A stretch of DNA of 53,067 nucleotides from Candidatus Avelusimicrobium excrementipullorum (GTDB lineage Bacteria; Elusimicrobiota; Elusimicrobia; Elusimicrobiales; Elusimicrobiaceae), in contig DWVB01000067.1 in the NCBI GenBank assembly GCA_019120455.1, positions 1 through 53,067 on the forward strand, read 5' to 3'. This document shows positions 1,086 to 42,655 of the stretch, piece by piece. The position numbers and the translations under genes are program-made. The notes beneath the pieces are model-generated. The model ran no database searches. It had not been told where the DNA came from and worked only from the letters and a program-made list of their open reading frames with translations. Each line of letters starts with the position of its first letter. The stretch's first letter is position 1.

Positions 1086-1171
1086 AAATAAAAAGAGCCG
1101 TGCTCGGAGCGGTGTAACGGGCCTAAAGCGATGTAATCGCTTTTTTCAGGCGGATAAGAATGCCTTTTTTG

Positions 1172-1177
1172 TAAAAT
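1172..1177 (+). promoter_or_regulatory. -10 box TAAAAT, leaderless arrangement
   Basis: TAAAAT is followed by exactly 6 bp and then the ATG at 1184. No Shine-Dalgarno can fit, so the transcript probably starts at or next to the start codon. Confidence 0.6.
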
Positions 1178-1183
1178 AATTTT

Positions 1184-2233
1184 ATGGAGATTTCTTTGCT
1201 TGCCAAAATTCTGCTGGGGCTGGTGGTGCTGAACCTGCTGGTCTGGCCGCTGAAATCCAAATGGGTGGAAAACCATTTGGAGATTTTTCTGCTTATGGTC
1301 GGTGCGGCGGCTGTTACCATCAGCGGAATGTGGAGCAAAGAGTTTATATATGACGCGCTCAATTCTCCCGTCAACGTGGCTTTTATCGTGCTGGTGGTCA
1401 GTATTATTTTCAATTATTATTCCCGTTATATTTTCCGCGTTTTGTTTGTATTGTTCCGTTTTTTTGAGCCGAAATACAGCTTTGCGATTTTGGTGTTCCT
1501 GCTGGGGATTACCTCCAGCGTGTTCAGCGTAACGGTGGCCGCGCTGGTATTGGCCGAGGTATTGCAGGTTGTCAATCTGGAGCGTGAACAGACCGTCAAA
1601 GTAACGGTATACGCCTGTTACGCCATCGGGCTGGGGGCGGTGCTGCTGCCGCTGGCCGAGCCGCTGGGGCTGGTTATTTATAAAGAACTGGCCGCCGGCC
1701 CGCACCAGGCGGATTTTTTCTTTGTGCTGAAACATTTCTTCTGGTGGATTATGCCCGCTATTTCGCTGATGGCTTTGGCGGCCGGTTATACCGTGCGCAA
1801 CGCCAATGCGCAGGTGGAGCTGCATATACGCGAAGATAAAGAAGATACGCGTTCCATGCTGCGTCGCACCTGGCATATTTATCTGTTCGTGGCGGCGCTG
1901 ACTTTAATCAGCACGGGCCTGCGCCCGTTTGCCGACGCAACCATCGCGCGTTTAAGCGGCAAAATTTTATTCTGGGCCAATTCCGTATCCGTCATTATAG
2001 ACAACGCCACGCTGGCCGCCATTGAAATTACGCCGGACGTGACCATTCCCAACCTGATGTATATGGTCATCGGGCTGGCGGCTTTTGGCAGCATGCTGAT
2101 CCAGGGCAATCTGCCCAATATCGTGGCCGCAGAAAAGCTGGGCATTAAAAGCCGCGAATGGGCGCGTGTGGCCGTACCGACGGGACTGGTGCTGATGAGC
2201 GGCTATTTTGTCGCGCTGTGGATTGTGTTGTAA
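1184..2233 (+). CDS. DUF1646 family membrane protein, putative cation transporter
   Basis: 349 residues with about ten hydrophobic segments. The run VTISGMWS near the N-terminus, the segment with LVLAEVL and IGLGAVLLPLAEPLG around residues 120-160, and the C-terminal GNLPNIVAAEKLGIKSREW region agree with what I know of DUF1646, a small family of predicted ion transporters distantly related to ArsB/NhaD-type permeases. The substrate is not known. It stands alone, with a leaderless-type promoter, and the hydrogenase operon starts 270 bp downstream with its own promoter. The family assignment is fairly sure; the transport direction and ion are not. Confidence 0.75.
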   Translation: MEISLLAKILLGLVVLNLLVWPLKSKWVENHLEIFLLMVGAAAVTISGMWSKEFIYDALNSPVNVAFIVLVVSIIFNYYSRYIFRVLFVLFRFFEPKYSFAILVFLLGITSSVFSVTVAALVLAEVLQVVNLEREQTVKVTVYACYAIGLGAVLLPLAEPLGLVIYKELAAGPHQADFFFVLKHFFWWIMPAISLMALAAGYTVRNANAQVELHIREDKEDTRSMLRRTWHIYLFVAALTLISTGLRPFADATIARLSGKILFWANSVSVIIDNATLAAIEITPDVTIPNLMYMVIGLAAFGSMLIQGNLPNIVAAEKLGIKSREWARVAVPTGLVLMSGYFVALWIVL

Positions 2234-2343
2234 ACTGACCTTTTTTTATTTCTTTTCCTAATTACTTTTCTTTTGTTTGTGTGGGGCTTTCGGCCCGTGT
2301 TTTTGCGCCGGAAGGACTTATATTTATATACGGGCAAGCGTGT

Positions 2344-2357
2344 TTACCGTACGGTAA
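2344..2357. promoter_or_regulatory. 14-bp perfect palindrome, candidate operator of hydCBA
   Basis: TTACCGTACGGTAA is a perfect palindrome ending 9 bp upstream of the -35 box of the hydrogenase promoter, a suitable site for a dimeric regulator. It does not resemble the Rex operator. The core TACCG-n2-CGGTA recurs at 13800-13811. Confidence 0.45.
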
Positions 2358-2366
2358 TTTAATTCG

Positions 2367-2395
2367 TTGACAGTCCGCGCCGCTCTTACTATAAT
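2367..2395 (+). promoter_or_regulatory. perfect sigma-70-type promoter of hydCBA
   Basis: TTGACA (2367-2372), a 17-bp spacer, and TATAAT (2390-2395) match the housekeeping consensus at all twelve positions. Transcription would start near 2402, leaving a leader of about 100 nt before hydC. No other promoter in the window matches this well. Confidence 0.8.
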
Positions 2396-2503
2396 AAGGG
2401 AGTAAGCCGTCCTACGTTTCATTTTTACCGCAGTAAAGGCTACGCGCTTCCCCGCGTGCGGCCCGTCGCACAGTTTTTGGCAGTTACTCAAACAGGAGAA
2501 ACC

Positions 2504-2986
2504 ATGACAGAAAAGTTCGCCCCCGTGGACAAAATACTTAAAGAACACGGCTGTGATCCGGCACAGCTTATCCCCATTCTGCAGCAAGTGCAGGATTTAT
2601 ACCGCTATTTGCCCGAAGACGTAATGCGTCATATTGCCGACAAACTGGAAATATCGCCCGCCCGCGTATTCGGCGTGGCGACGTTTTTTGCGCATTTCGC
2701 CATTACGCCCAAAGGCAAACACATTATCCGCGTGTGCAACGGCACGGCCTGCCACGTGAAGGGCTCCTCTTTTGTCATTAACACCGTCAAAGACAAGCTC
2801 AAACTTAAAGACGGACAGGACACCACCGAGGACGGTCTGTTTACGCTGGAATGCGTTTCGTGCCTGGGTGCGTGCGGGCTGGCGCCCGTGATGGTTATTG
2901 ACGAAACGGTGCACGGGCAGATTACCCCCGCGCAGGCCGTAAAACTGATTGACGATATTGCCGCCGCGGAGGCCAAAAATGCCTAA
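2504..2986 (+). CDS. hydC: [FeFe] hydrogenase subunit HydC (NuoE-like 2Fe-2S protein)
   Basis: 160 residues, the usual size of NuoE/HydC thioredoxin-like ferredoxins. An N-terminal helical bundle (1-70) is followed by the 2Fe-2S fold with ligands Cys78, Cys83 (CNGTAC) and Cys120, Cys124 (CLGAC). In trimeric electron-bifurcating hydrogenases this subunit sits beside the NADH/FMN subunit. The ATG at 2504 follows AGGAG; a frame-open start 48 bp upstream lacks a site and is not conserved. The stop overlaps the start of hydB by 8 bp, consistent with translational coupling. Confidence 0.93.
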   Translation: MTEKFAPVDKILKEHGCDPAQLIPILQQVQDLYRYLPEDVMRHIADKLEISPARVFGVATFFAHFAITPKGKHIIRVCNGTACHVKGSSFVINTVKDKLKLKDGQDTTEDGLFTLECVSCLGACGLAPVMVIDETVHGQITPAQAVKLIDDIAAAEAKNA

Positions 2987-4859
2987 AACCATTGAACAAA
3001 TTTCCAAAGAATATAACGACGCATATAAAAAAGTGACCGGCCGCGTTACCATTTGCGGCGGCACGGGCTGCATAGCCGGCGGCAGTATGAAAGTGTATGA
3101 CGCTTTCCAAAAAGAACTGGAAAAGCGCAAAATCGGCTATTGCCTCAACATTACCAAAGGCTGCCATGAAAATTACATCAGCATCAGCGGCTGCCGCGGC
3201 TTCTGCGCCGCCGGTCCGCTGGTCAGCGTCAATGATATTTTTTATACGCACGTCAAACCCGAAGACGTGCCCGAAATTGTGGAAAAAACGATTATGAAAG
3301 GAGAGCCGGTGGAACGTTTGCTGTATGTGGATCCAAACTCCCACAAGCATTGCAAAACCACGGCCGAAATCCCTTTTTATTCCAAGCAGGAACGCATTTT
3401 GCTGCATGACTGCGGCCGCATCAACCCCGAGGATATCAACGAATACATCGCCCACGGCGGTTATGCCCAGGCCAAGCGCGCCTATACGCAAATGACCGAT
3501 GAAGAAGTCTGCAAAGAAATTATGGAGTCCGGCCTGCGCGGGCGCGGCGGCGGCGGTTTCCCCACCGGCAAAAAGTGGGATTTGACGCGCATTGAAAAAG
3601 GACCCAAAAAATACGTCATCTGCAACGCCGACGAAGGCGACCCGGGCGCATTTATGGACCGCAGCGTCATGGAAGGCAACCCCAACGCCGTGATTGAAGG
3701 CATGATGATTGCCGCGCGCGCCATCGGCGCCGACGAAGGGTATATCTATGTGCGTATGGAATACCCGCTGGCGGTACAGCGCATGCGTACCGCCATTAAG
3801 CAGGCCGAAGAACTGGGCCTGCTGGGCAAAAATCTGTTCGGCTCCGGCAAGGATTTTGACATTCACGTCATGGAAGGCGCGGGCGCTTTCGTGTGCGGCG
3901 AGGAAACCGCGCTGATCGCTTCCGTGGAAGGCAAACGCGGCATGCCCAATGTCAAGCCGCCCTTCCCCAGCCAGAAAGGCTTGTTTGGCAAACCCACCGT
4001 CATTAACAATGTGGAAACCCTGGCCACCGTGGCTAAAATTATGGAAATGGGCGCCAAAGAGTTTAAGAAAATCGGCACGCTGACCAGCCCCGGCACCAAG
4101 ACGTTTGCTGTGACGGGACACATCGCCAATACGGGCCTGGTGGAAGTGCCCATGGGCACTACGCTGCGCCAGGTGATTGACGACGTGGCCGGCGGCACCA
4201 CCAACGACGACGGCACGGTAAACAAGGCCGCTTTTAAAGCTGCGCAAATCGGCGGGCCTTCGGGCGGCTGTCTGACCAGAGAACATTTGGATATTCCGCT
4301 GGATTTTGATTCGCTCAAATCCGTGGGGGCCATGGTCGGCTCCGGCGGTTTGGTGGTAATGAACGACAAAACCTGTATGGTCAATGTGGCGCGCTTCTTC
4401 CTGGAATTTACGCAGCGCGAATCCTGCGGCAAATGCGTGCCGTGCCGCGAAGGCACGGAGCAGATGCTGACTATGCTCAACGATATTGTGGAAGGCCGCG
4501 CGACGCTTAAAACGCTGGAAAACCTGGAAGACCTGGCAAAAGCCGTGCAGAAGGCTTCCCTCTGCGCGCTGGGCAAAACCGCGCCCAATCCGGTGCTGTC
4601 CACGCTCAAGCACTTTAAAGACGAATACTTGGCCCACGTGGTGGAAAAACGCTGTCCCGCCGGCGTGTGCAAGGCGCTGGCGCGCTTTGAAATCGTGGCC
4701 GACAAGTGCAAAGGCTGCGGCATGTGCAAACGCGCCTGCCCCGTGCAGGCCATCTCGGGCGAGGTGGGCAAACCCCATCATATTGACCCCAAAAAATGTA
4801 TCAAATGCGGCGGCTGCAAGAGCACCTGCAAATTCGGCGCGGTCATTACCGGCGCATAA
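2979..4859 (+). CDS. hydB: [FeFe] hydrogenase subunit HydB (NuoF-like, NADH/FMN binding)
   Basis: 626 residues. Domains in order: an N-terminal thioredoxin-like 2Fe-2S domain (about 22-110; CGGTGC and later GC-x3-C motifs), the NuoF core with the glycine-rich FMN/NADH site GRGGGGFPTGKKW near residue 190 and GEETALI near 310, an SLBB segment, a 4Fe-4S site (CGKCVPC, about 485), and a C-terminal 2[4Fe-4S] ferredoxin (CKGCGMCKRACP and CIKCGGCKSTC). This is the organisation of HydB of trimeric hydrogenases, where FMN couples NADH to ferredoxin and the H-cluster. Starts at ATG 2979 inside the end of hydC and is followed 12 bp later by hydA. Confidence 0.95.
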   Translation: MPKTIEQISKEYNDAYKKVTGRVTICGGTGCIAGGSMKVYDAFQKELEKRKIGYCLNITKGCHENYISISGCRGFCAAGPLVSVNDIFYTHVKPEDVPEIVEKTIMKGEPVERLLYVDPNSHKHCKTTAEIPFYSKQERILLHDCGRINPEDINEYIAHGGYAQAKRAYTQMTDEEVCKEIMESGLRGRGGGGFPTGKKWDLTRIEKGPKKYVICNADEGDPGAFMDRSVMEGNPNAVIEGMMIAARAIGADEGYIYVRMEYPLAVQRMRTAIKQAEELGLLGKNLFGSGKDFDIHVMEGAGAFVCGEETALIASVEGKRGMPNVKPPFPSQKGLFGKPTVINNVETLATVAKIMEMGAKEFKKIGTLTSPGTKTFAVTGHIANTGLVEVPMGTTLRQVIDDVAGGTTNDDGTVNKAAFKAAQIGGPSGGCLTREHLDIPLDFDSLKSVGAMVGSGGLVVMNDKTCMVNVARFFLEFTQRESCGKCVPCREGTEQMLTMLNDIVEGRATLKTLENLEDLAKAVQKASLCALGKTAPNPVLSTLKHFKDEYLAHVVEKRCPAGVCKALARFEIVADKCKGCGMCKRACPVQAISGEVGKPHHIDPKKCIKCGGCKSTCKFGAVITGA

Positions 4860-4871
4860 GGGGAGCATGTT

Positions 4872-6605
4872 ATGGAAAATAAAGAACAAGGTTTTGTTAC
4901 GATTGAAGGAAAAAGAGTACCCATACAGGGAGAGAAAAACCTGCTGGAGTTGGTGCGCAAGGCAGGATATAATATTGTTACGTTCTGTTACCATCCGGAG
5001 CTGGCCGTATACGGCGCCTGCCGCCTGTGCCTGGTGGAAATTGAAGGCATGGGCATCTTGGCTTCCTGCACCGTTACGCCCAAGGACGGCATGAAAGTGC
5101 GCGTAAACAGCGACGAAATCCGCCATTTGCGCCGCATTAACCTGGAGCTGCTGCTTTCTTCGGGTAACCATGACTGCACGCTGTGCAGCAAATCCAACAA
5201 CTGCAAATTGCAGAAGCTGGCCAAGGATATGGACGTAACGGAAATCCGTTTTAAATCCAAAAAGCTGGACAGCCACAAAGACGCCACCTCTCCCGCCCTG
5301 GTGCGCGACCACAGCAAATGCATCCTGTGCGGCAACTGCGTGCGCATCTGCAACGAGGTGCAGGGCATCGGCGCCATTGATTTTGCATTCCGCGGGTTTA
5401 AGTCCAAAATCGCCACCGCGTTTAACAAAGAACTGGGCGAAAGCCACGAATGTGTGGCGTGCGGCCAGTGCGCGCGCGTATGCCCCACGGGGGCTTTGAT
5501 GCCGAACTCTTCGGAAATTGAAGAAGTGTTTAAAGCCATCAACGACCCCAAGAAAAAAGTGGCCGTGCACATCGCGCCGGCCGTGCGTGTGGGGCTGGGC
5601 GAAATTTTCGGTCTTCCTCCCGGAGAGCCCATTGACGGTAAAATCGCCACCGCATTGCGCATGCTGGGCTTTGACTATGTGTATGACACGGCTTTCGCGG
5701 CGGATTTGACCATTGTGGAAGAAGCGACGGAATTTTTGGAGCGTTTCAAAAAAGGCACCAACCTGCCGCAGCTGACCAGCTGCTGCCCCGCGTGGGTTAA
5801 TTATGTGGAAAAATTCGCGCCCGAATTTATCCCCAACCTCTCCACCGCGCGTTCGCCCATGCAGATGATGGGCCCCGTGCTGAAAGCGGACTTTGAGGAA
5901 AGAGGCGGCAAACGCGAAGACCTGGTGGTGGTGGCCGTTATGCCGTGCTCGGCCAAGAAGGCCGAAGCCAAACGCGGCGAATTTTACGTCAACGGCAATC
6001 CGGACACCGACTATGTGGTAACCACCGTCGGTCTGGCGCGCATGATTAAAGAAGCAGGCATTGATTTTGTCAACCTGGAGAACGAATGGTTTGACATGCC
6101 CTTCGGCACCAAGACCGGCGCGGGCGTAATCTTTGGCGCGTCCGGCGGCGTGATGGAGGCCGCCCTGCGCTACGCCGTGGCGGAGCTGGACCCCGAAAAT
6201 GCGCGCAGCGTCAAGTTTTCCAGTCTGCGCGAAAGCAAAGTGTTTAAAGAAAAAACCGTGGTCATCGGCGACAAGAAAATACGCTGCGCCGTGGTCAGCG
6301 GGCTGAAAAACGCGCGCAAGTTGTTGGACGACATCAAAGCCGGCAAGGACAATTACGACTTTATTGAAGTCATGTCCTGCCAGGGCGGCTGTGTGGCCGG
6401 TGCGGGCCAGCCGCAGTTTGAAGGCTGGGCCCTGCGCAAAACGCGCGCCGAAGGCCTGTATAAAGAAGATACGGAGCTGGCCTATAAGTCGCAGGACAAC
6501 AGCGGCGTACAGGCGCTGTACGGGCGCATTTTGGACAAAATAGGCGGCCCTGTGGCGCACAAACTGCTGCACACGCATTACAAGTCCAAAAAATACCAGG
6601 ATTAA
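4872..6605 (+). CDS. hydA: [FeFe] hydrogenase catalytic subunit HydA
   Basis: 577 residues. The N-terminal plant-type 2Fe-2S domain has Cys39, 50, 53 and 66; a His/Cys 4Fe-4S site follows (HDCTLCSKSNNC, about 100-114), then a two-cluster ferredoxin (CILCGNCVRIC and CVACGQCARVCP). The H-cluster motifs are L1 TSCCPAW (about 302), L2 MPCSAKKAEAKR (about 357) and L3 EVMSCQGGCVAGAGQP (about 500). L3 departs slightly from the common form: Q for P and A for G. With hydC and hydB this makes the NADH- and ferredoxin-dependent bifurcating type (group A3 by neighbourhood), producing H2 in the cytoplasm. The maturases HydE, HydF and HydG are not in the window. GGGGAG precedes the ATG. Confidence 0.96.
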   Translation: MENKEQGFVTIEGKRVPIQGEKNLLELVRKAGYNIVTFCYHPELAVYGACRLCLVEIEGMGILASCTVTPKDGMKVRVNSDEIRHLRRINLELLLSSGNHDCTLCSKSNNCKLQKLAKDMDVTEIRFKSKKLDSHKDATSPALVRDHSKCILCGNCVRICNEVQGIGAIDFAFRGFKSKIATAFNKELGESHECVACGQCARVCPTGALMPNSSEIEEVFKAINDPKKKVAVHIAPAVRVGLGEIFGLPPGEPIDGKIATALRMLGFDYVYDTAFAADLTIVEEATEFLERFKKGTNLPQLTSCCPAWVNYVEKFAPEFIPNLSTARSPMQMMGPVLKADFEERGGKREDLVVVAVMPCSAKKAEAKRGEFYVNGNPDTDYVVTTVGLARMIKEAGIDFVNLENEWFDMPFGTKTGAGVIFGASGGVMEAALRYAVAELDPENARSVKFSSLRESKVFKEKTVVIGDKKIRCAVVSGLKNARKLLDDIKAGKDNYDFIEVMSCQGGCVAGAGQPQFEGWALRKTRAEGLYKEDTELAYKSQDNSGVQALYGRILDKIGGPVAHKLLHTHYKSKKYQD

Positions 6606-6621
6606 TGTTTGTTTATACAAC

Positions 6622-6649
6622 AAAAACCCCGCTTTACAGCGGGGTTTTT
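6622..6649 (+). terminator. terminator of hydCBA
   Basis: AACCCCGC / GCGGGGTT stem with a short loop, followed by a T run, 17 bp after the hydA stop. Confidence 0.85.
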
Positions 6650-6666
6650 AAGTTGGCAAAAGGCTT

Positions 6667-6675
6667 TGTTATAAT
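6667..6675 (+). promoter_or_regulatory. extended -10 TGT-TATAAT, leaderless arrangement
   Basis: TGT-TATAAT ends exactly 6 bp before the ATG at 6682, with no ribosome site. TTGGCA lies only 11 bp upstream of the TATAAT and is too close to be a -35. Confidence 0.65.
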
Positions 6676-6681
6676 TTACAT

Positions 6682-8733
6682 ATGAAGAAACTTGTGACGG
6701 TGTTAACCGGTATGGCTATGACGCCCGCCCTGTTCGGCGGCGCCTATGACAAACTGTTTGAGAACGGTTTGCTGCGTTTTAATTATACGCCGGCGGAACT
6801 GGCCGCCCTGGAAGAACAGGCCCGCGCGGAGCTGGAAGAAAATCTCGCCGCTGTTGCGGCCGTGCCGCCTGCGGAACGAAACTTTGAAAACACGGCGCTG
6901 GCGGTGGAAAACGCCTACACCAATTATTGGTTTGTGCCCAAGGCCCTGTCCCTGCTGGCTTATTTCCATGAGGACGCCGGCGTCCGCGCCGCCGCGGCGG
7001 AACTGGAGAGTAAAGGCAGCCGCGTCAAAACGGATTTTTTCACCCGCCGCGACATATACCGCGCGTTGAAGGAATATGCGGACGCAAAACCGGCCCTGGA
7101 CGAAGAACAACAGCGCATGCTGAACAAATGGCTGGTAAAGTTTGAACGCAACGGCATGGGACTTTCGGACAAGGAACTGAAAAAATTCGTCAAACTCAAT
7201 GCCGAACGTTTGGATAAAATTACGCGCTATAACGTAAATTTAAACAATTATCAGGACCAGCTGGAGCTGACGCGCCGGGAGCTGGACGGCATGGAAGAAA
7301 CCTATATCAGCCGCCTGGCCCGCACAAAGGACGGCAACTATGTGGTAACGTTAAAATACCCCGATTATAACCCGTTTATGGCCAATGCCACAAGCGAATC
7401 CGCCCGAAAGGCCCTGCAAAGCAAATTTGCCCGCCGCGGCGGCAAAGAAAACGTCAAGCTGCTGGAAGACACGCTGCTGTTGCGTTCCAAAACCGCGCGT
7501 CTGATGGGCTATGAAAAATACCCCGATTATGTGCTGCCCGCGCGCATGGCCCAAAATTATGAAAATTTGGAAGCGTTTTTAAAAGATTTGGAAAAACAAA
7601 TCCGTCCGCTGGCCGATGCGGAAATGAAAGAATACCTGGCGTTGAAAAAAGAAATGACGGGCGAAGAAAGCCAAACCCTGAACGCTTGGGAAACGGCCTA
7701 CTGGGCCAACCAGTACAAAAAGCGGAAATATGCCGTGGACGACGAGAAAATCAAAGAGTATTTCCCGGCGGACAAAGTCATAAACGGAATGTTTGACACA
7801 TTCGGCCCGCTGTTCGGACTGACGTTTGAGCCTGCCGCACTGCCCGCCTGGCACAAAGACGTGCAGACGTATATCATCAAAGATAAAAAAAGCGGGGAAA
7901 TGATTTCCTATTTTTATTTGGACGCTTACCCACGTGACGGCAAATATACCCACGCCGCCACGTGGAGTTTTGTGGACCGTTTCCAAAAGCCGGACGGCTC
8001 TTATCAAATCCCGTCCGTTGTCATCGCGGCCAATTTTACGCCTGCCGGCGGCGGACTGCCCGCCCTGCTGACGCACAGTGACGTGGAAACGCTGTTCCAC
8101 GAGTTCGGGCATGTGCTGCAAATGTCTTTGGCAACGTCGCGTTATGCCAGTCTGACCGGGGACAATGTGGCCTGGGATTATATAGAAACCCATTCCCAGC
8201 TGCTGGAAAACTGGGCCTGGCAGCCGCAGGTGCTTAAAAATATTTCCGCCCATTATCAGACGGGGGAGCCGCTGCCGGATGATTTGATTGCCGCGCTGGT
8301 GCGTTCCCGCCGCGCGGGGGAAGCGACGGCTTTTCTGCGCCAAAACTTTTTGGGCCAGTTTGACGTAGATGCCCATACGGCCAACAAACGCGTAAACACC
8401 ACCAAACTCTATGGCCGGCTGATGGAGCAGATAACAGGCACGCCACTGACCAAAGGCACCTATCCGCAGGCCAGCTTTGGCCACATTATGAGCCTGACCG
8501 ACCCGTATGATGTGGGGTATTATGTGTATGCGTGGTCTTTGGTTATTGCGGAGGATATCTTTGCCCGGTTTGAGCAGCAGGGGCTGTTTAACGAAGAGTT
8601 GGGTGCCAAACTGCGTGAGTATATCTACACGCCCGGTACGGCCAAAGACGAAAATGAAATGGTGCAAGCCTTTTTGGGGCGGCCATATAATAATAAAGCG
8701 TTTTTAAAAAGCTTGGGAGTACCCGAACGCTGA
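6682..8733 (+). CDS. secreted M3-family zinc oligopeptidase
   Basis: 683 residues, the usual length of M3 metallopeptidases (thimet oligopeptidase / Dcp type). The zinc site is TLFHEFGHVLQ (HExxH, around residue 473), with the third ligand expected in the downstream ENWAW region. The N-terminus (residues 1-20, hydrophobic, then GGAYD) looks like a signal peptide, suggesting a periplasmic peptidase that trims peptides taken up as fermentation substrates. Dcp from enterobacteria is cytoplasmic or periplasmic and cleaves C-terminal dipeptides; which specificity applies here cannot be read. The gene is monocistronic between two terminators. Confidence 0.9.
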   Translation: MKKLVTVLTGMAMTPALFGGAYDKLFENGLLRFNYTPAELAALEEQARAELEENLAAVAAVPPAERNFENTALAVENAYTNYWFVPKALSLLAYFHEDAGVRAAAAELESKGSRVKTDFFTRRDIYRALKEYADAKPALDEEQQRMLNKWLVKFERNGMGLSDKELKKFVKLNAERLDKITRYNVNLNNYQDQLELTRRELDGMEETYISRLARTKDGNYVVTLKYPDYNPFMANATSESARKALQSKFARRGGKENVKLLEDTLLLRSKTARLMGYEKYPDYVLPARMAQNYENLEAFLKDLEKQIRPLADAEMKEYLALKKEMTGEESQTLNAWETAYWANQYKKRKYAVDDEKIKEYFPADKVINGMFDTFGPLFGLTFEPAALPAWHKDVQTYIIKDKKSGEMISYFYLDAYPRDGKYTHAATWSFVDRFQKPDGSYQIPSVVIAANFTPAGGGLPALLTHSDVETLFHEFGHVLQMSLATSRYASLTGDNVAWDYIETHSQLLENWAWQPQVLKNISAHYQTGEPLPDDLIAALVRSRRAGEATAFLRQNFLGQFDVDAHTANKRVNTTKLYGRLMEQITGTPLTKGTYPQASFGHIMSLTDPYDVGYYVYAWSLVIAEDIFARFEQQGLFNEELGAKLREYIYTPGTAKDENEMVQAFLGRPYNNKAFLKSLGVPER

Positions 8734-8737
8734 AAAA

Positions 8738-8760
8738 CCCCCGCCGAAAGGCGGGGGTTT
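8738..8760 (+). terminator. terminator after M3 peptidase
   Basis: CCCCCGCC / GGCGGGGG stem with a GAAA tetraloop and a short T run. The T run is reused as part of the TTTGTTATAAT promoter of the next gene. Confidence 0.85.
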
Positions 8761-25769: not shown

Positions 25770-26855
25770 TTACAGCTTCAGCCATTTGAATTCAAAAAAT
25801 ACCACCGCGCCGAAAAACAGCACCGGGCCCCAGCCGGCCAGATAAGGATTGATATAGCCGTTTTCCCCAATAGAGGTAATCATGCTGATCAGCCACCAAA
25901 ACGTGAAGGCGATAACCATGGAAGCGATAATATTTAAAATTTTGCTTTTCCGGCGCAGACTGATGGCAAAGGGCATGCCCAGCAGGCACATAATCAGCGT
26001 TACAAACGGCGTGGCCAGCTTGGCCTGGCGTTCTGTTTCGGCGGCGTACGAGGCCAGCCCCGTGCGTTTAAAAAAGTTAATCCGTTTGGTCAGCGCGCGT
26101 ATGCTTAACAGTTTGTTTTCCGTACGGTTGACAGACATGTCCTGCGGCTGCATTTCCACGGGGCTGCCGGTATGTTCAAAATGTTCGTCTTCCGTATCCA
26201 GTTCGTCTACAAAGGTGCGGTAGGTGCCTTGTTCAAACACCCAGCTGCGGCTGTTTTCATCCCACACCATGCGTTTGGCCACATATTGCGAGGCAATATT
26301 CCACAGGCTGTCATAAGTATCCAAAGATACATTTTCCATGACGCCGCTGCTCAAATCCACCCGCTTGGCGTAAAGCATTTGGTTGTCCGATATTTTCATA
26401 GCCACATCTGTTTCGGCGTTGAGGTTGAAATTTTTGTCGGGGCTGATCTTGGTGTAATACCAGCTTTCAGCTTTAATGTTCAGCGGCGGGACGATAAATT
26501 CCTGCACGGCCATGGTCAGCAGTGTAACCAAAATAATGCACATAATGACGGGTTTAAACAACTGTCTGGGGGAAAAGCCGCTTGCCACGCAGGCGGTCCA
26601 TTCGCCGGAAGACACCATTTCCGATATCACGGATATGGCCCCCAGCAGACAGGCCACCGGCATAATGGTGGTCAGCCAGCTGGGAAACGTCAGCAGGGAA
26701 TAGGTCAATATGGCGCTTAATGTGGAATAGCCGTTGCTTAAGGTTTTGAGCTTTTCAAAGGTATCCCCCAACACCACCAGCGCGGCAAATACGCCCATGG
26801 CAAAAAAGAAGGGGCCCCAAAATTTTTTGGCGATATAGCGGAACAGGCGGCTCAT
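25770..26855 (-). CDS. lptG: LPS export permease LptG
   Basis: 361 residues, LptF/LptG (YjgP/YjgQ) fold: three N-terminal membrane helices, a periplasmic beta-jellyroll (about 125-265) and three C-terminal helices. LptG with LptF and the ATPase LptB extracts LPS from the inner membrane. The start MSRLFRYIAKKFWGPFF at 26855 overlaps the upstream stop as TGATG; longer frames are not family-like. Order (second gene, shorter jellyroll) suggests LptG, but F and G are hard to tell apart by eye. Confidence 0.85.
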   Translation of the reverse strand: MSRLFRYIAKKFWGPFFFAMGVFAALVVLGDTFEKLKTLSNGYSTLSAILTYSLLTFPSWLTTIMPVACLLGAISVISEMVSSGEWTACVASGFSPRQLFKPVIMCIILVTLLTMAVQEFIVPPLNIKAESWYYTKISPDKNFNLNAETDVAMKISDNQMLYAKRVDLSSGVMENVSLDTYDSLWNIASQYVAKRMVWDENSRSWVFEQGTYRTFVDELDTEDEHFEHTGSPVEMQPQDMSVNRTENKLLSIRALTKRINFFKRTGLASYAAETERQAKLATPFVTLIMCLLGMPFAISLRRKSKILNIIASMVIAFTFWWLISMITSIGENGYINPYLAGWGPVLFFGAVVFFEFKWLKL

Positions 26856-27958
26856 CAGATATTTAACCTCTTTTTCCATAAGTACCAGGCCGCTGCGGCT
26901 CCCGTCACAATAGGCAGCCACGGAGCGGGATAGGCCAGGAATCCGTATTTCTTGCCTATGCTCAAACCCAGCGTCATCAGCAGATAAAACGCAAAAATGA
27001 TGATAATGCTAAACAGCATGCCCCAGCCTTTGTTGCTGCGTTTACCCAAAGAAAATCCCAGCGGACAGCTGATAAAGAGCAAAACAATCGGGGCGAAGGC
27101 CATCACGTTGCGCACGCTGACTTCGGTGCGGTATTCGGCTTTTTCTTCCGGGGACAACCCGCCTCCGCGCAGCAGACGCAGAATTTTGGTGCTGGTCAGC
27201 TCTCCCACGCGCAGGCGGCGGTGGTAATCCCGCGTCAGGGAAATGCTCATGGTGTAATTGTCAAAATTGGCGGCTATAATGGCCGCTGGGTCTTTGGCGT
27301 CTATGCGCTGCATCTGGCCGTCCTGCAGCTGCAGGCCGATGGCCTTGTCGGTTAAAATGACTTTGCCGGATGTGGCGTTTACCTTGGTGCTTAAAGCGCC
27401 GTCATCTTTTTTGCGGATTAAATGAATCATTTGGGCCACGTCGGTGTCTTCGTCCAGTTCCTCCAAATACAGGTCCCATTCGCCCAGGTTTAAAAAAGTT
27501 TTGGGTTCCAGGGTGACTTTGGTAATTTTCTGTCTGGCTTCTTCCCTCCGGTCCAGCAGGCGTTTGTAGCTGCGCGGCGTGATCCAGTTGGACAGGAAAA
27601 ACAACAGTACCGTCAGCGCCACGGCACAAAAAGCCAGCGGCCGCACGATTTCTTTAAAAGAAAACCCCGCCGCGCGCAAAGCAATCAGCTCGCCGTGTTC
27701 GCTCATATTGGTCAGCGCCAGCAGAACGGAAATTTGGAAAGCCATGGGGGCGGCCATGGTAAATACATCCGGCATTACATTAAGCAGGGAGGAGGCAATC
27801 CAGCCCCAGCTGGTGCCGTAGCTCATGGCCATGTTCATGATACGGATGAACTGGTTCATGAAAATCACAAACATCAAAATGCCCACCACGCCGCAGAAAA
27901 ACGTGATCAGGCTTTTGGCAATATATCTGGTAAAAATAGCCGGCCGTGTGATTCTCAT
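26855..27958 (-). CDS. lptF: LPS export permease LptF
   Basis: 367 residues with the same architecture as its neighbour: N-terminal helices with FTRYIAKSLITFF, a periplasmic domain (about 125-260) and C-terminal helices ending in a basic WKKRLNI. Marks include SEHGELIALRAAGFSF, the conserved cytoplasmic loop of YjgP/YjgQ proteins. It is the first gene of a two-gene unit with lptG. TGT-TAGAAT lies 9 bp before the ATG, without a ribosome site. Confidence 0.88.
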   Translation of the reverse strand: MRITRPAIFTRYIAKSLITFFCGVVGILMFVIFMNQFIRIMNMAMSYGTSWGWIASSLLNVMPDVFTMAAPMAFQISVLLALTNMSEHGELIALRAAGFSFKEIVRPLAFCAVALTVLLFFLSNWITPRSYKRLLDRREEARQKITKVTLEPKTFLNLGEWDLYLEELDEDTDVAQMIHLIRKKDDGALSTKVNATSGKVILTDKAIGLQLQDGQMQRIDAKDPAAIIAANFDNYTMSISLTRDYHRRLRVGELTSTKILRLLRGGGLSPEEKAEYRTEVSVRNVMAFAPIVLLFISCPLGFSLGKRSNKGWGMLFSIIIIFAFYLLMTLGLSIGKKYGFLAYPAPWLPIVTGAAAAWYLWKKRLNI

Positions 27959-28139: not shown

Positions 28140-31100
28140 ATGAAAACCGCACGGCTGGTTTTGTGCCTTTTTCTAATCCTCCAGTTGCTTTTCGGTCCGT
28201 ATTTACAGGCCGAAACGCTGCCGTATCAGCTGGTGGACAGAGACAAGTATGACCTGTTTGAAGAGGACCGAAAAGCCGCCGAAGAAAAAGAACTGATTAT
28301 TGAGGATGCGCCCGATGACGCGCAGCTGCTGAAATATACCAATGAATTTTGGCGTCAGGCCGTTACCGCCGTGGAAGGGGATTATACCCTGGATAAAGGC
28401 CCCGAGCCCATACCGGACCTGACACTGTTAAACCCCACCCTTTCTTTGCCGTTGTACGGCACCAATTTGGCGTTGACCGGACGGTATGTTATCGGTTTTC
28501 GGCTGGACGCCATGCGTTATACCCAGGACACCAATAATACCGTTGAGGACCGCAATACCCGCAGTTTTGAAATGCAGCAGGAAATGCAGCTGAAAATGCA
28601 GGGTAAAATTTTGGACCGCATTTTTGTGGACATTGACTATGACGACCAGAGAGAGGAAGAAAAGACGATTTCCGTGGCGTACCGCGGCAAACCCGGGGAA
28701 CTGGTGCAGCTGGCTGAATTTGGCGACATTAACCTCTCCCTTCCGCAGACGGAATTTATTGCGTATGAAAAGCAACTTTTCGGCGCCAAGGTGCATTTGC
28801 AGCATAAGAATTTGGACCTGAATATTATCGGCAGCCAAACCAAAGGCACCAACAAGCAGAAACAGTTTGTGGGCAGCAGCGTGTTTGAAATCGTGACGAT
28901 TGCCGATACCGATTATGTGCGCCGCACCTATTATGACATGACTTTCGGTTCCAATACCCCTGTGGGGACCAACGTAAAATGGTCCACCACCATCGGTAAT
29001 ATCGCCGCCGGTACGGAAGAAGTGTATGTGGATACCAATACCATTCGCGGCGACTATGTGCCCGTATCCCTGCAGGTGCGTGATTACGGAACAGACAGCG
29101 TGGTGTATTCCGGCACGTTTAAGCAGTTGCAGCGCGGCACGGACTATACGGTGGATTACAGTCGGGGTATCATTGAATTTTCCAGCGCGCAAACGGCTGC
29201 CAGTATTATTGCGATTAACTACCAAAACAGCGCCGGTACCTGGCTCAGCCCCAACCAACTGCAGCCTTATGTCATCAAAACCTCCAATGATAAATATATT
29301 CTGTCTTCCGATGAGCTGGGCTATCAGATGGAAATGAAAACCTTTTACAATGTCGGTGCACAGCAGATTACGCGCGACAACGGAAAAGGGAACTTCTTGC
29401 TTAATCTGTTGGACGCCAACGGGCAGGACGTCGGGGCCAGCGCCAGCCCGCAGCAGGTGTATCCCTCTACCATTGATATGGATTTTGACAAAGGCGTGTT
29501 TGAACTCAGAAGCCGCATGACCGATGACCTGGGGTTATATAACGCCACGCCCGTATCCTCCAAAAACCGCAAATTTCAGGTGGAGTATACCTCTACCGTC
29601 AAAACATATTTTGTGGAAGCGGGCATTGTGGTGGAGTCTGAAAGCGTCAAATTAAACGGCGTACAGCTGCAGCGCAATAATGACTATTACATAGATTATG
29701 CGTCCGGTTATTTAACCATTTATGACGGAGACCGTATTACGGAAGATTCCGTTATAGACATTACATATGACACCTCCGACGGCTCCAGCTCCAACAATTC
29801 CCTTATCGGCGGACGGTTGGATTATCAGCTTTTTGACAAAATCAAATTGGGCGCGACGGTGTTAAAAGAAGGGTTGGAGAAACAGGACACCGTGCCGCAG
29901 GTGGGCAATTATGCACAGGACCTGCTGGTATACGGCGCCGATGTCCGCGCGCAGGATTTAAAAGTTACCGATTCCCTGTCGGTGGATTTGGCGGCGGAAG
30001 TGGCCCAAAGCGAAAAAAATGAAAACTCTTTTGGCTATGCCATGGTGGACAGTATGAACGAAGTGAGCATACAAACCGGCGGCAGCAATGTTTTTTATGA
30101 CTGGACCATCGCCGCCAACCCCAATGGCTATCCGTCCTTCCTGGACTCCGTAAGCTGGGATACGCAGGATTTGCCCGCCCTGCAAATTAACCCCAACTCC
30201 GCAGCCTCTTACAGCGAGCAGCAGCAGGTGTTGGTAATCAATTATGACTTTACCAAAGCGATGACGCAGGGGTACAGCGACCATGATGAAATTTCCATTG
30301 TTTATCCTTTAAGCAACAGCGGGCTGGACCTGTCTACCAAAACATCTTTTGAACTGACTATGTTGGGGGAAGGCAGCCGGGAAAGCGGCGCCCCGCAGAT
30401 TGATATTACCTTTGGTAACATCAGCGAGCGTTCCGACTCGGCCAACCCGATGTCCGTGCCGGACGGCCTGGTGCCCGGGCAGCAGGGTATGTACACCAGC
30501 TGCAGCCCCTCCACCGCCGTGCCGAAAACGGAGGACGTGAACTGTCTGGAAACGCTGGCTCCGAATGAAGACCAGGGCTGGTGGTTTGCCAATCCGGACG
30601 GCACTTTGCAGCGTTTTAATCCGTTTGTCAACAATGCCTATAACCGCGAAAGCCAGCCCAACGGCCGCATAGACACCCAGGATTTGAACAACAACGGCCG
30701 TTATGATGAGGAAGACTCCTCCGTGGGCGGCCACTTCGGGTATAACGGTATTGCCATTGAGGGACTGACAGACAGCAGCCTGGCTTATGACGGCTGGCGC
30801 ACATTCACCGCGCCGCTGAATATTGCCGACGGGGATAAAGACAACTGGACGGCCGTGCGCCACCTGCGCATTACGCTGAAATATAACGGCAAACTGCGCG
30901 GTACCGTCAAAATAGCCAATGTTTCTCTGTCCGGTACGGCCTGGAACCCGCAGGAGAATATCAACCCTGACCAGTTTGCCGTATCCGGTATTAATAATGT
31001 AGACAACACCAATTATGTGCCCATTTTTGCTGAAAATAACGGAGACGGAACGGAAGTGTTCCGCTATTTATACGGTTCCGTAGCCGATTATAGAGAGCAG

Positions 31101-33521
31101 AACGATACGGCCAATGTCATGGACCAGGCTTTAAATCTGACCTTTGACACCACGCAGGTATATGACGACAGTTTATATGCCAACCGTAATTTTTCGGAAA
31201 TGGATTTCACCCAGCACAAAGAGTTTCGCTTCCTGCTCTACAGCGATCCGTCCAATGCCGGCAGCGAATTTTTCATGAAAGTGGGTACGGACGAAAACTA
31301 TGATAAAGTAACCGTGCCCCTGGATTTCGGCACCGCCCAGTGGCGGCTGATTTCACTGCGCATGGTGGACAGCGACGGCGACGGCATAGCGGACAGTTTT
31401 GAAAACGCCTCTGATGAGCAATACGGCGTGCGTGTTTCTCATGTGCGTACCGCTGCGGGCATTATGAACTTCCAGCAGGTCAGTATGATTATGGCCGGTG
31501 TGGAAAAGGAAACTGACGATGACGGTAATTATGTCGGTACGGGCAGCAGCGGCTCTGTGTGGCTCAATGTAATTCACCTGGCCGAATCCGTTACCACCAC
31601 AGGCACGGCATATATGGGGGAAACGGTGGTGCGTCTGGACGGCTGGGGCAGCGCGGGGGCGAAATACAAGCATCGGGACGGCACCTTTGAAACGCCGCTG
31701 GCCGTAGCCACCAACCAGGAAGTGACGGAGGAAGAATATTTCCTGAAAGTGGATAAAATCAAAGAGTTCCCCATGGAGGCCACCTTTAACCGCAGCACTA
31801 CGGTTACTCCGTATGTAACAAGTTCTGATGACTACAATACCGTCAGTTCTTTGGATAAAGGCAGTGTGGAACGCCAGCAGGCTACGGTAAAGGGCGATTT
31901 TATTAAGGGCAATTTACCCAAAGTCAGCCTGCAGTACACCTTAAACCAGGTGGAATACGATTTAATGCAGCGCAAAGACAAAGAACAAACCTATGCGCTG
32001 ACCGTGACGCATACTTCCCAGGGATCGCTGAAAAGTTTGAACGCCGGCTATTCCTATACCAATACCAGCATTGATTACGGCAAAGACAAACACCTGGAGT
32101 CGGAGAGTTATTACAACACCGACGAAGATACCCAGCGCATGAACGTGAAGTTTAATTACGAGCCGGTCAGCAATTTCAGCATTACGCCCAGTTATTCGCT
32201 GACGCAAAGCACCGAAGAACGCCTGCAATATACTTCGCAGGATACGGCCGACAGCCGTCACTATCCCAAAGGCATGAACCAAAGCGCGGGCTTCAACAGC
32301 ACCTGGCGTATTGCCAAATGGCTGGCTCCTTCCGTCAGCTATAACATCGCCACCACGGAAAGCAACAGCTTGGTATCACGCACTTTTAACGCCAATACGG
32401 ACGAAGAAAAAACATTCGGCCCCGGGGAACTCAAAAGCCTCAACCGCAGCTCGGACGGAGGCATATCGCTGACGCTCAACGGCAATGAAATCATGCCCAA
32501 GAGCAAACTGTTTAAGAGCCTGGTGATTTCGTCCAGCTACCGCCTGCAGGACGCCGATTCGTGGAATTATGTGGACGAAGATTTTGATTCGCGCAGCAAA
32601 CTGTGGATACGTTCCTCCCTTTCCGGCACCGGCGACTATTCCAGCCGCCAGAGTCTGGTGCTGCGCGATACGGTGACTTCTTCCCAGCGCTGGAGTCCGT
32701 TTTCCGAGTATAACCTGGGCGGCATGCTGGCCCCGCTTAAAACCATATCTCTTTTAAATAACTTTACCCAAAGCGTACAGCAAAACAACCAAACCGGCAC
32801 GGAATACGAGTCCAAAAGCATGACGCTGCCGGACCTGGTGTTTTCCATATCCGACGTGGAAAAATTCTTTAACGGCGGGCGCTGGATTAACTCCGTTAAC
32901 GTAAAACTGCGCTACAGCGAAATAGAAAGCACCACCGTGGACAGCAGCGAGGAGCTTACGCGCCAATACGGCGGGGACCTGCGCTTTTTGCTTTTCAATA
33001 AATTTGACACGGTGCTGGTCTATGACCGCAGCACCTCCAACGAAGACGATTTGCGCGCACACCAAAGCCTGAGCAGTTCCGTGGAAGAAGAATTTTCCGC
33101 CCAGACTTCTTTTTACCTGGGCAACTGGCGTTTTACGCCCAAAATTACGCGCAGTATTTATGAAAACCGCCTGGTCAACGGCCAGCTCAGCGAAAGCAGC
33201 AAAGAAATTACCCCCAGCCTGACCGCCCGCCTGGATTTCAATTTGCCGCGCGGCATCAAACTGCCTTTTATCAACCGTATGTATAATGCCACCAACCGCG
33301 TGATTTGGAATACGACCGTCGCTTATACCACGCGCGAATCGCCCGTGGAAGTCAACGACAACTACGATTTACTGGATATTACTTCCTCGCTGGATTATGA
33401 GCTGTCCCAAAACCTGCGCCTGAATCTGGCGGGGTCGGTGCAGTGGCTGACGCATGCTTATGTGGAAACCGAAGATTATATGGCCTACAGCCTGGCGGCC
33501 AATCTTACTATCCAATTCTAA
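28140..33521 (+). CDS. SprA/Sov-like giant outer-membrane beta-barrel protein
   Basis: 1793 residues. A signal peptide (1-24, ending YLQAE) is followed by a region (about 100-250) with VDIDYDDQREEEKTISVAY, ELVQLAEFGDINLSLP and KQLFGAKVHLQHKNLDL, which corresponds in order and wording to the N-terminal part of SprA/Sov, the type IX secretion translocon. Two repeats of the form GTDYTVDYSRGIIEFSS (about 340) and NNDYYIDYASGYLTIYD (about 520) follow, then Asp-rich calcium-type loops DLNNNGRYDEED (about 845) and DSDGDGIADSFEN (about 1080). The last 600 residues are alternating strands ending in LAANLTIQF, a barrel end. Bacteroidota SprA is longer (about 2400). No other T9SS gene is in the window. 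It is followed by comF, with overlap. Confidence 0.7.
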   Translation: MKTARLVLCLFLILQLLFGPYLQAETLPYQLVDRDKYDLFEEDRKAAEEKELIIEDAPDDAQLLKYTNEFWRQAVTAVEGDYTLDKGPEPIPDLTLLNPTLSLPLYGTNLALTGRYVIGFRLDAMRYTQDTNNTVEDRNTRSFEMQQEMQLKMQGKILDRIFVDIDYDDQREEEKTISVAYRGKPGELVQLAEFGDINLSLPQTEFIAYEKQLFGAKVHLQHKNLDLNIIGSQTKGTNKQKQFVGSSVFEIVTIADTDYVRRTYYDMTFGSNTPVGTNVKWSTTIGNIAAGTEEVYVDTNTIRGDYVPVSLQVRDYGTDSVVYSGTFKQLQRGTDYTVDYSRGIIEFSSAQTAASIIAINYQNSAGTWLSPNQLQPYVIKTSNDKYILSSDELGYQMEMKTFYNVGAQQITRDNGKGNFLLNLLDANGQDVGASASPQQVYPSTIDMDFDKGVFELRSRMTDDLGLYNATPVSSKNRKFQVEYTSTVKTYFVEAGIVVESESVKLNGVQLQRNNDYYIDYASGYLTIYDGDRITEDSVIDITYDTSDGSSSNNSLIGGRLDYQLFDKIKLGATVLKEGLEKQDTVPQVGNYAQDLLVYGADVRAQDLKVTDSLSVDLAAEVAQSEKNENSFGYAMVDSMNEVSIQTGGSNVFYDWTIAANPNGYPSFLDSVSWDTQDLPALQINPNSAASYSEQQQVLVINYDFTKAMTQGYSDHDEISIVYPLSNSGLDLSTKTSFELTMLGEGSRESGAPQIDITFGNISERSDSANPMSVPDGLVPGQQGMYTSCSPSTAVPKTEDVNCLETLAPNEDQGWWFANPDGTLQRFNPFVNNAYNRESQPNGRIDTQDLNNNGRYDEEDSSVGGHFGYNGIAIEGLTDSSLAYDGWRTFTAPLNIADGDKDNWTAVRHLRITLKYNGKLRGTVKIANVSLSGTAWNPQENINPDQFAVSGINNVDNTNYVPIFAENNGDGTEVFRYLYGSVADYREQNDTANVMDQALNLTFDTTQVYDDSLYANRNFSEMDFTQHKEFRFLLYSDPSNAGSEFFMKVGTDENYDKVTVPLDFGTAQWRLISLRMVDSDGDGIADSFENASDEQYGVRVSHVRTAAGIMNFQQVSMIMAGVEKETDDDGNYVGTGSSGSVWLNVIHLAESVTTTGTAYMGETVVRLDGWGSAGAKYKHRDGTFETPLAVATNQEVTEEEYFLKVDKIKEFPMEATFNRSTTVTPYVTSSDDYNTVSSLDKGSVERQQATVKGDFIKGNLPKVSLQYTLNQVEYDLMQRKDKEQTYALTVTHTSQGSLKSLNAGYSYTNTSIDYGKDKHLESESYYNTDEDTQRMNVKFNYEPVSNFSITPSYSLTQSTEERLQYTSQDTADSRHYPKGMNQSAGFNSTWRIAKWLAPSVSYNIATTESNSLVSRTFNANTDEEKTFGPGELKSLNRSSDGGISLTLNGNEIMPKSKLFKSLVISSSYRLQDADSWNYVDEDFDSRSKLWIRSSLSGTGDYSSRQSLVLRDTVTSSQRWSPFSEYNLGGMLAPLKTISLLNNFTQSVQQNNQTGTEYESKSMTLPDLVFSISDVEKFFNGGRWINSVNVKLRYSEIESTTVDSSEELTRQYGGDLRFLLFNKFDTVLVYDRSTSNEDDLRAHQSLSSSVEEEFSAQTSFYLGNWRFTPKITRSIYENRLVNGQLSESSKEITPSLTARLDFNLPRGIKLPFINRMYNATNRVIWNTTVAYTTRESPVEVNDNYDLLDITSSLDYELSQNLRLNLAGSVQWLTHAYVETEDYMAYSLAANLTIQF

Positions 33522-34239
33522 ACGGCTCTGGCGCGGCATACTGCATGTGCTGCTTCCGCGCACCTGTTACGCCTGCCGCCGCGATGTGCCGTTTGGCTGG
33601 GAGCGGCCGTTGTGCGCGGCGTGCGAAGCGCTGGTATGCACGCCGGGCCCGCTGTACTGCCAACGCTGCGGCAAACCGCTGCCGGACGGCGGCGCGCACT
33701 GCTACCAGTGCCGCGGAAGCAAAGCTCGTTCCTTTTCCTGCAAAATTATACGTTCCGCCGTATTGTTTAATCCGCCGGTGCGTGCGCTGGTGCATGCGTT
33801 TAAATATGCCGACAGGGCGCAGCTGTCGGGTTATTTGGCACAGTATATGGTGCGGCAGTGGCCCCGCTATCCGCAGCTGCATGAGGCGCAGCTGATTATT
33901 CCGGTGCCGCTTCACGCCAAAAAATTAAAACGGCGCGGCTATAACCAGTCCGCCCTGCTGGCGCGGGCTTTGGCGCGGCAGCTGCATTTGCCGCAGGCCG
34001 AAGATGTGTTGCTGCGCGTGCGCAATACGCCCAGCCAGACAGGGTTTGGGCGCGAAGGCCGCCTGCGGAATATGCACGGGGCTTTTGCCTGTGTGCGGCC
34101 CGGGTGCGTGAAAGGAAAGATTATTTTGCTGATAGACGATGTGGCCACCACCGGCGCCACGCTGGAAGGCTGCGCCGCGGCGCTGAAAGAAGCGGGCGCC
34201 AAAAAAGTGATGGCTTACACGCTGGCACGGGAGGTATAA
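33454..34239 (+). CDS. comF: ComF-family phosphoribosyltransferase-like protein
   Basis: Up to 261 residues. An N-terminal zinc ribbon (CYAC, CAAC, CQRCG, CYQC) precedes a phosphoribosyltransferase domain with the PRPP loop LLIDDVATTGATL (about 225-237) and the preceding RGYNQSALLARALA. ComF proteins take part in DNA uptake and processing or are of unknown activity. The start is uncertain: the ATG at 33454 (or 33460) lies inside the end of the SprA-like gene, with 68 bp overlap; a GTG at 33547 would remove part of the conserved amphipathic N-terminus. No good ribosome site is seen for any of them. Confidence 0.85.
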   Translation: MLMWKPKIIWPTAWRPILLSNSKRLWRGILHVLLPRTCYACRRDVPFGWERPLCAACEALVCTPGPLYCQRCGKPLPDGGAHCYQCRGSKARSFSCKIIRSAVLFNPPVRALVHAFKYADRAQLSGYLAQYMVRQWPRYPQLHEAQLIIPVPLHAKKLKRRGYNQSALLARALARQLHLPQAEDVLLRVRNTPSQTGFGREGRLRNMHGAFACVRPGCVKGKIILLIDDVATTGATLEGCAAALKEAGAKKVMAYTLAREV

Positions 34240-42319: not shown

Positions 42320-42321
42320 AT

Positions 42322-42655
42322 AGATGACGGCCCATACCCCGGATTCTGTCGGGCCTAAAGACCCGTGAGAACCATTACTCTAAGCGGCCTACTCTGCCTC
42401 TGGCGCGGGACACGCATGGGCATATTTGGCCTTGCTCCGCGCGGGGTTTGCCCTGCCGCACGCATTGCTTTGTGCGCGGTGCGCTCTTACCGCACCTTTT
42501 CACCCTTGCCCGAAGGCGGTATGTTTTCTGTGGCACTTTCCGTCCGTGCGGATTTTGGCCCGCACGGCCCTTGCTTTCGCAAGGCGCGCTTCCCTGTGGA
42601 GTCCGGAAGTTCCTCCCCCGGCAATTAAGCCGGAGGCGGCTCTCTGGACCGTCAA
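42322..42655 (-). ncRNA. rnpB: RNase P RNA (bacterial class A)
   Basis: On the minus strand, helix P1 forms from TGACGGTCC (42654-42646) and GGGCCGTCA (42333-42325). The conserved blocks GAAAAGGTGCGGTAAGAGCG, AACATACCGCC and GACAGAATCCGG follow in the right order, so this is certainly the catalytic RNA that cuts tRNA leaders. The 5' conserved block reads GAGGAACTTCCGGACTCC where GAGGAAAGTCCGGGCTCC is usual, and the 3' block reads CCGGGGTAT where CCGGCTTAT is usual; these changes pair with each other in helix P4. Ends are estimated within a few bases. It lies just downstream of the RNase HI gene. Confidence 0.95.

Follow-up and report, generated by a model that had tools for sequence, protein, structure and literature searches.

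Whether the type IX secretion system (T9SS), or some part of it, operates outside the group of bacteria in which it is known is a question raised by a single large gene at positions 28140-33521 (+) of a 53,067-nucleotide contig, hereafter the window, from a gut member of the Elusimicrobiaceae. An earlier note, made from the sequence alone, had proposed that this gene encodes a giant barrel resembling SprA/Sov, the translocon of the T9SS. The system has been assigned to the Fibrobacteres-Bacteroidetes-Chlorobi (FCB) group or superphylum, and its genes have been described as absent elsewhere (PMC11285876, PMC11205867); the Elusimicrobiota are, by taxonomy, a separate phylum, and among open-licence papers we found none on SprA or the T9SS in this phylum, for which automatic database annotations may exist. 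The computations described below show the homology and fold that relate the product to SprA, the presence of the PorV family and of the family of T9SS C-terminal domains (CTDs), the pairing of the latter two, and the occurrence of all three in one genome. Judged from these sequences, the three would probably form the core of a type IX-like secretion system, namely a translocon, a cognate PorV-family carrier and CTD cargo, and we put the probability of this reading at roughly 0.77.

Homology and fold of the SprA-like protein

The gene is an uninterrupted open reading frame (ORF) with an ATG start that encodes 1793 amino acids, and it is no accident of the sequence, since dozens of relatives' genomes carry it intact (27-80% identity in an alignment of 46 sequences). 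The NCBIfam model TIGR04189, 'T9SS outer membrane translocon Sov/SprA', matched four stretches of the protein (E 1.2e-31), and the gene was the sole match to this model in the 1.41 Mb of its own genome. The best stretch, residues 125-264 (28512-28931, +), corresponds to model positions 111-253. A search of the PDB with the single sequence gave no useful match. When a profile of the 46 relatives' sequences was searched against all PDB sequences, however, SprA of Flavobacterium johnsoniae was the only match (E 1.5e-36), and the alignment was colinear, with residues 145-259, 510-591 and 753-1179 corresponding to SprA 150-267, 700-781 and 1028-1598, respectively. The N-terminal SprA/Sov segments that the earlier note had recognized were thus recovered by both searches. 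As also noted earlier, the protein is shorter than SprA; the deficit of about 610 residues is scattered among the gaps between the aligned segments and does not form a single block.

AlphaFold2 models were made of two overlapping parts of 1200 residues, 92-1291 (pLDDT, the model's own confidence score, 78.9) and 594-1793 (pLDDT 87.5). The four best fold matches of each part were SprA structures, with E values of 9e-51 and 6e-34, whereas the next protein gave 9e-5 and 3e-6, so that non-SprA folds were at least 25 orders of magnitude weaker. The TM-scores were moderate (0.43-0.50 on the query), as expected for partial barrels, and identity to SprA in the structural alignment was 11-14%. By eye, about 28 long predicted strands run through the last 660 residues (31548-33518, +), the chain ending in LTIQF with a terminal Phe, and about eight precede them, giving some 36 in all, a total near the 36 strands of SprA. 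The predicted fold therefore has the large SprA barrel that the earlier note had anticipated, and no family matches better. From profiles and modelled folds we conclude that the product is homologous to SprA, colinear with it over much of its length (PDB 6h3i, 6h3j, 8gl6, 8gl8), and is predicted to have the same giant-barrel fold, even though it differs from the F. johnsoniae protein in length, identity, phylum and its position beside lptF and lptG.

PorV-family carriers and their candidate cargo

In 41 genomes of the phylum, Pfam models detected PorV in 23 and the CTD in 25, with as many as 22 PorV and 31 CTD copies per genome. Profiles were built from these phylum members and searched against the PDB: the PorV profile matched the PorV of the solved translocon (chain 6h3i_F, E 5e-38), and the CTD profile matched the CTDs of PorZ, PorU and translocon-bound cargo in the PDB. 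Run over 51 genomes of the order at a loose E of 0.1, they found PorV-like proteins in all 51 and CTD-like proteins in 46, and overturned the first Pfam outcome, according to which the host's own family would have had neither. Profiles made from the own family agreed with those of the phylum (probability 100% for PorV and 98.6% for the CTD). In the host genome itself, the PorV-like gene lies at 5971-6930 of another contig, C71 (E 5.7e-45 with the phylum profile), and its product passes the NF033709 PorV_fam (PorV/PorQ) cut-off, scoring 92.6 bits against 90. Upstream of it is the candidate cargo, an ORF of 1615 residues that contains FlgD-Ig repeats and ends in a CTD-like domain, and the carrier gene begins 19 bases past the end of this ORF. 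The host genome, like those with SprA/Sov systems, therefore holds a PorV-family carrier together with CTD cargo.

The pairing of the two families recurs. Loci were fetched for the best PorV or the best CTD match and inspected for a neighbouring gene of the other family on the same strand; such a partner was present in 17/25 and 16/20 loci of the order and in 7/8 and 7/8 of the phylum. The counts err on the low side: genes that lie opposite longer shadow ORFs are lost in ORF calling, the PorV gene of the host genome among them, and some loci reach contig edges. By comparison, the chance of finding a CTD gene within 3 kb is estimated at about 2%, for a density of roughly 20 CTD genes per 2.5 Mb. 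PorV was 5' of the CTD gene in six of the 16 order loci. A large expansion was seen in aquifer relatives of the same order (family f2), which carry 7-47 PorV-like and 5-42 CTD-like genes each, mostly as adjacent pairs of carrier and cargo.

F. johnsoniae uses a single PorV for all type A cargo (PMC12618676). The Elusimicrobiota proteins belong with the PorV/PorQ carriers by the matches described above, but they differ from those of F. johnsoniae in occurring in up to tens of copies per genome, frequently as partners of type A-like CTD cargo. A carrier gene directly 3' of its cargo gene is reminiscent of the Flavobacterium pairs of type B CTD and PorP/SprF; in the Elusimicrobiota, however, the carrier is of the PorV family and the CTD is type A-like.

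In the host genome the pair opens a Tad (type IVc) pilus operon (locus L243, G000:C71:1-13746, at 1131-6930 and 6950-11794), with the gene for the CTD cargo first and that for the PorV-family carrier second. According to Pfam, TadE, RcpC/CpaB, a secretin and a TadA-type ATPase follow 3' of the pair, and in a relative (L245) the row extends to two T2SSF proteins (TadB and TadC) and a TPR protein. The order of ORFs looks alike in seven own-family loci (L243-L249), two of which were analysed with Pfam. The association with pilus genes hints that the system may serve in surface attachment. In the gut genome the set detected comprises a single PorV and a single FlgD-Ig-repeat cargo of 1615 residues; a lineage with a single carrier and a single cargo would be a minimal natural version of the system. 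A gene for a GGDEF protein lies upstream of the Tad operon.

Proposed loading and release, and the alternatives

We infer that the SprA-like, PorV and CTD proteins work together. A signal peptide would take the cargo across the inner membrane, the Ig-like domain at the cargo's C terminus (the CTD) would go into the SprA-like barrel and be captured there by the cognate PorV-family carrier, and cargo and carrier would then exit sideways to the cell surface. In the model for F. johnsoniae, the CTD binds PorV loops within the SprA pore, after which the motor supplies the energy that draws the carrier with its load out through a lateral gate (PMC10994853). By analogy, the Elusimicrobiota parts would fit the loading steps of this model; the energy for release, if any is needed, could possibly come from another inner-membrane transducer, from a diverged motor or from folding of the cargo. 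What pulls loaded carriers from the SprA-like protein, as the motor does in Flavobacterium, becomes a testable question.

Several observations weigh against the type IX reading. The TIGR04189 matches total 109 bits, under the equivalog cut-off of 200. The Pfam PorV and CTD models found nothing in the host's own family, whose versions of both proteins have evidently diverged, since the models miss them; the small alignments of own-family PorV and CTD sequences likewise drew no match from the PDB. In the host genome the CTD matches reach no more than E 1.8e-6 and 1.6e-3, which is weak, and FlgD-Ig repeats are themselves similar to CTDs. The motor search, made with the Pfam models of GldM and GldN (GldK, GldL, SprE, SkpA and Plug lay outside it), found GldM, the PorM motor arm, above cut-off in 0/100 genomes and any match to GldN, the PorN ring, in 0/42; no control genome exceeded the cut-off for GldM or had a match to GldN. 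This is a difference from the F. johnsoniae system, in which the motor is required for cargo release (PMC10994853). Finally, a C25 peptidase of the PorU type was found in 1/42 genomes, the host genome being without one and the control genomes likewise blank.

Of the partners that the earlier note had suggested looking for in the genome, PorV and a CTD protein were thus found, whereas GldM, GldN and, in the host, PorU were not. PorU is required for the attachment branch of the T9SS only. It is likely that PorU is absent from the host genome, and likely, too, that the GldM/GldN motor is absent from the sampled Elusimicrobiota; the latter absence is put no higher because the controls were blank and the Pfam models had missed the host's own PorV. 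The only C25 (gingipain/PorU-type) matches in the phylum sample are two pieces on different contigs of one genome (L091 and L092; G006:C83 and G006:C55), one of them within a 980-amino-acid frame that also bears a CTD match.

The same considerations lend some weight to the alternative that the T9SS is complete and that its GldKLMN motor and ring proteins have diverged past the Pfam models. The host's PorV and CTD were missed by Pfam and found by phylum-built profiles, so that Pfam negatives are weak, and the blank control genomes point the same way. We nevertheless regard this alternative as unlikely, given that models of the same kind detect PorV and the CTD in over half of the phylum sample yet return neither GldM nor GldN. 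Tentatively, and with rather less confidence than we place in the core itself, we suggest that the Elusimicrobiota T9SS may be ancient and lack the GldKLMN rotary motor, its translocon and PorV-CTD pairs being self-sufficient or differently powered. If so, the SprA-PorV-CTD core would predate the motor by which the Bacteroidota system is defined, and would have a wider distribution than that motor.

The earlier note had left the choice between a reduced T9SS and a single-protein export channel. A stand-alone channel, functionally unconnected to the PorV-like and FlgD-Ig proteins, would agree with the absence of any T9SS partner from the window, which the note had recorded correctly, and with the location of PorV and cargo on another contig. 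Substrates are scattered in Flavobacterium as well, however, many of them paired with their own shuttles (PMC12618676), and here the SprA-like, PorV and CTD families share one genome and the PorV-CTD pairs recur across the phylum. We consider such a channel improbable and favour the reduced T9SS, because PorV and CTD cargo genes are present in the host genome, outside the window. Least credible of all is that the barrel is a lipopolysaccharide (LPS) exporter substituting for LptD, likewise an outer-membrane barrel: its divergent lptF/lptG neighbours are retained in most families sampled, and Endomicrobiaceae are reported to keep LPS genes without LptD (PMC11257099), but fold and profile searches lead to SprA, while LptD, a barrel with an N-terminal jellyroll, shows generic barrel similarity only (E 5e-5 vs 6e-34), PorV and CTD partners are present in the host genome, and a Pfam scan of the protein gave no LptD family match (the host genome was not searched for LptD).

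A SprA-PorV-CTD set found across the Elusimicrobiota would widen the range of the system.

Distribution, gene neighbourhood and sequence features

All relatives with a phylum in their titles are Elusimicrobiota, the nearest being metagenome-assembled genomes of gut Elusimicrobiales and Elusimicrobiaceae, which bears out the placement outside the Bacteroidota. The SprA-like gene is present in 165/199 genomes of the phylum sample, and a tree of the 46 sequences roughly matches taxonomy: four kinship groups require 5 changes on it, compared with a mean of 24 after shuffling. The order lptG-lptF, sprA-like gene, comF is kept in most families sampled, with exceptions. Phylum-wide presence, a taxonomy-like tree and recurrent gene order together indicate a long residence in the phylum; we conclude from these comparisons that the gene is old in the Elusimicrobiota and no recent import into the host genome. 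Many small-genome members of one genus (family f10, genus g30) lack the gene, as would be expected if reduced symbionts had lost it. TIGR04189 matches below cut-off were also seen in the control genome Thermus composti, a bacterium of neither phylum that may encode a remote relative of SprA.

The lptF/lptG and LPS genes mentioned in the earlier note were confirmed on both sides. Divergent and upstream lie two LptF/LptG-family permeases, at 26855-27958 (-; PF03739, E 1e-66), kept in most families sampled, and at 25770-26921 (-; PF03739, E 4e-71). Downstream are a conserved comF gene for a ComF-like phosphoribosyltransferase (33454-34239, +; PF00156, PF18912), a KDO transferase gene (waaA/kdtA) and a heptosyltransferase-family gene.

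Within the SprA-like protein, residues 1-24 (28140-28211, +) form a putative signal peptide, MKTARLVLCLFLILQLLFGPYLQA, as read from the sequence. The repeats and Asp loops described in the earlier note are present. The first DYxxDY motif, TDYTVDY, lies at about residues 333-340 (29136-29159, +), within a TIGR04189 stretch at 29121-29216; across the phylum D339 is invariant and D335, Y336 and Y340 are at least 90% conserved in the 46-sequence alignment. The second, NDYYIDY (about 514-520), falls in a second SprA block of residues 472-605 (29553-29954, +; TIGR04189 E 4e-12) and within the alignment to SprA 700-781. An Asp/Asn-rich, putatively calcium-type loop, NGRIDTQDLNNNGRYDEEDSS, occupies residues 841-861 (30660-30722, +), with N841, G842, D845 and D848 conserved, and in the PDB profile search it aligns with the DVEDINRDNT segment of SprA. 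The other loop, TSP3-like, is at residues 1077-1090 (31368-31409, +) and matches TSP3_bac weakly (PF18884, E 0.11, below cut-off). The Pfam scan of the protein gave no family above cut-off, and a match to the tail-tube model NF052337 was put down to chance.

Elsewhere in the window, a 430-amino-acid protein (12472-13764, -) in which a single POTRA domain exceeds the Pfam cut-off is possibly a short Omp85-family barrel, and a small outer-membrane beta-barrel protein (OMP_b-brl) is encoded directly after murB (15893-16621, -). A 1233-amino-acid frame at 2922-6623 (-), opposite NADH-dehydrogenase-like and [FeFe]-hydrogenase genes, appears to be a shadow ORF and no gene. The RNase P RNA, class A (RF00010), lies at 42320-42655 (-).
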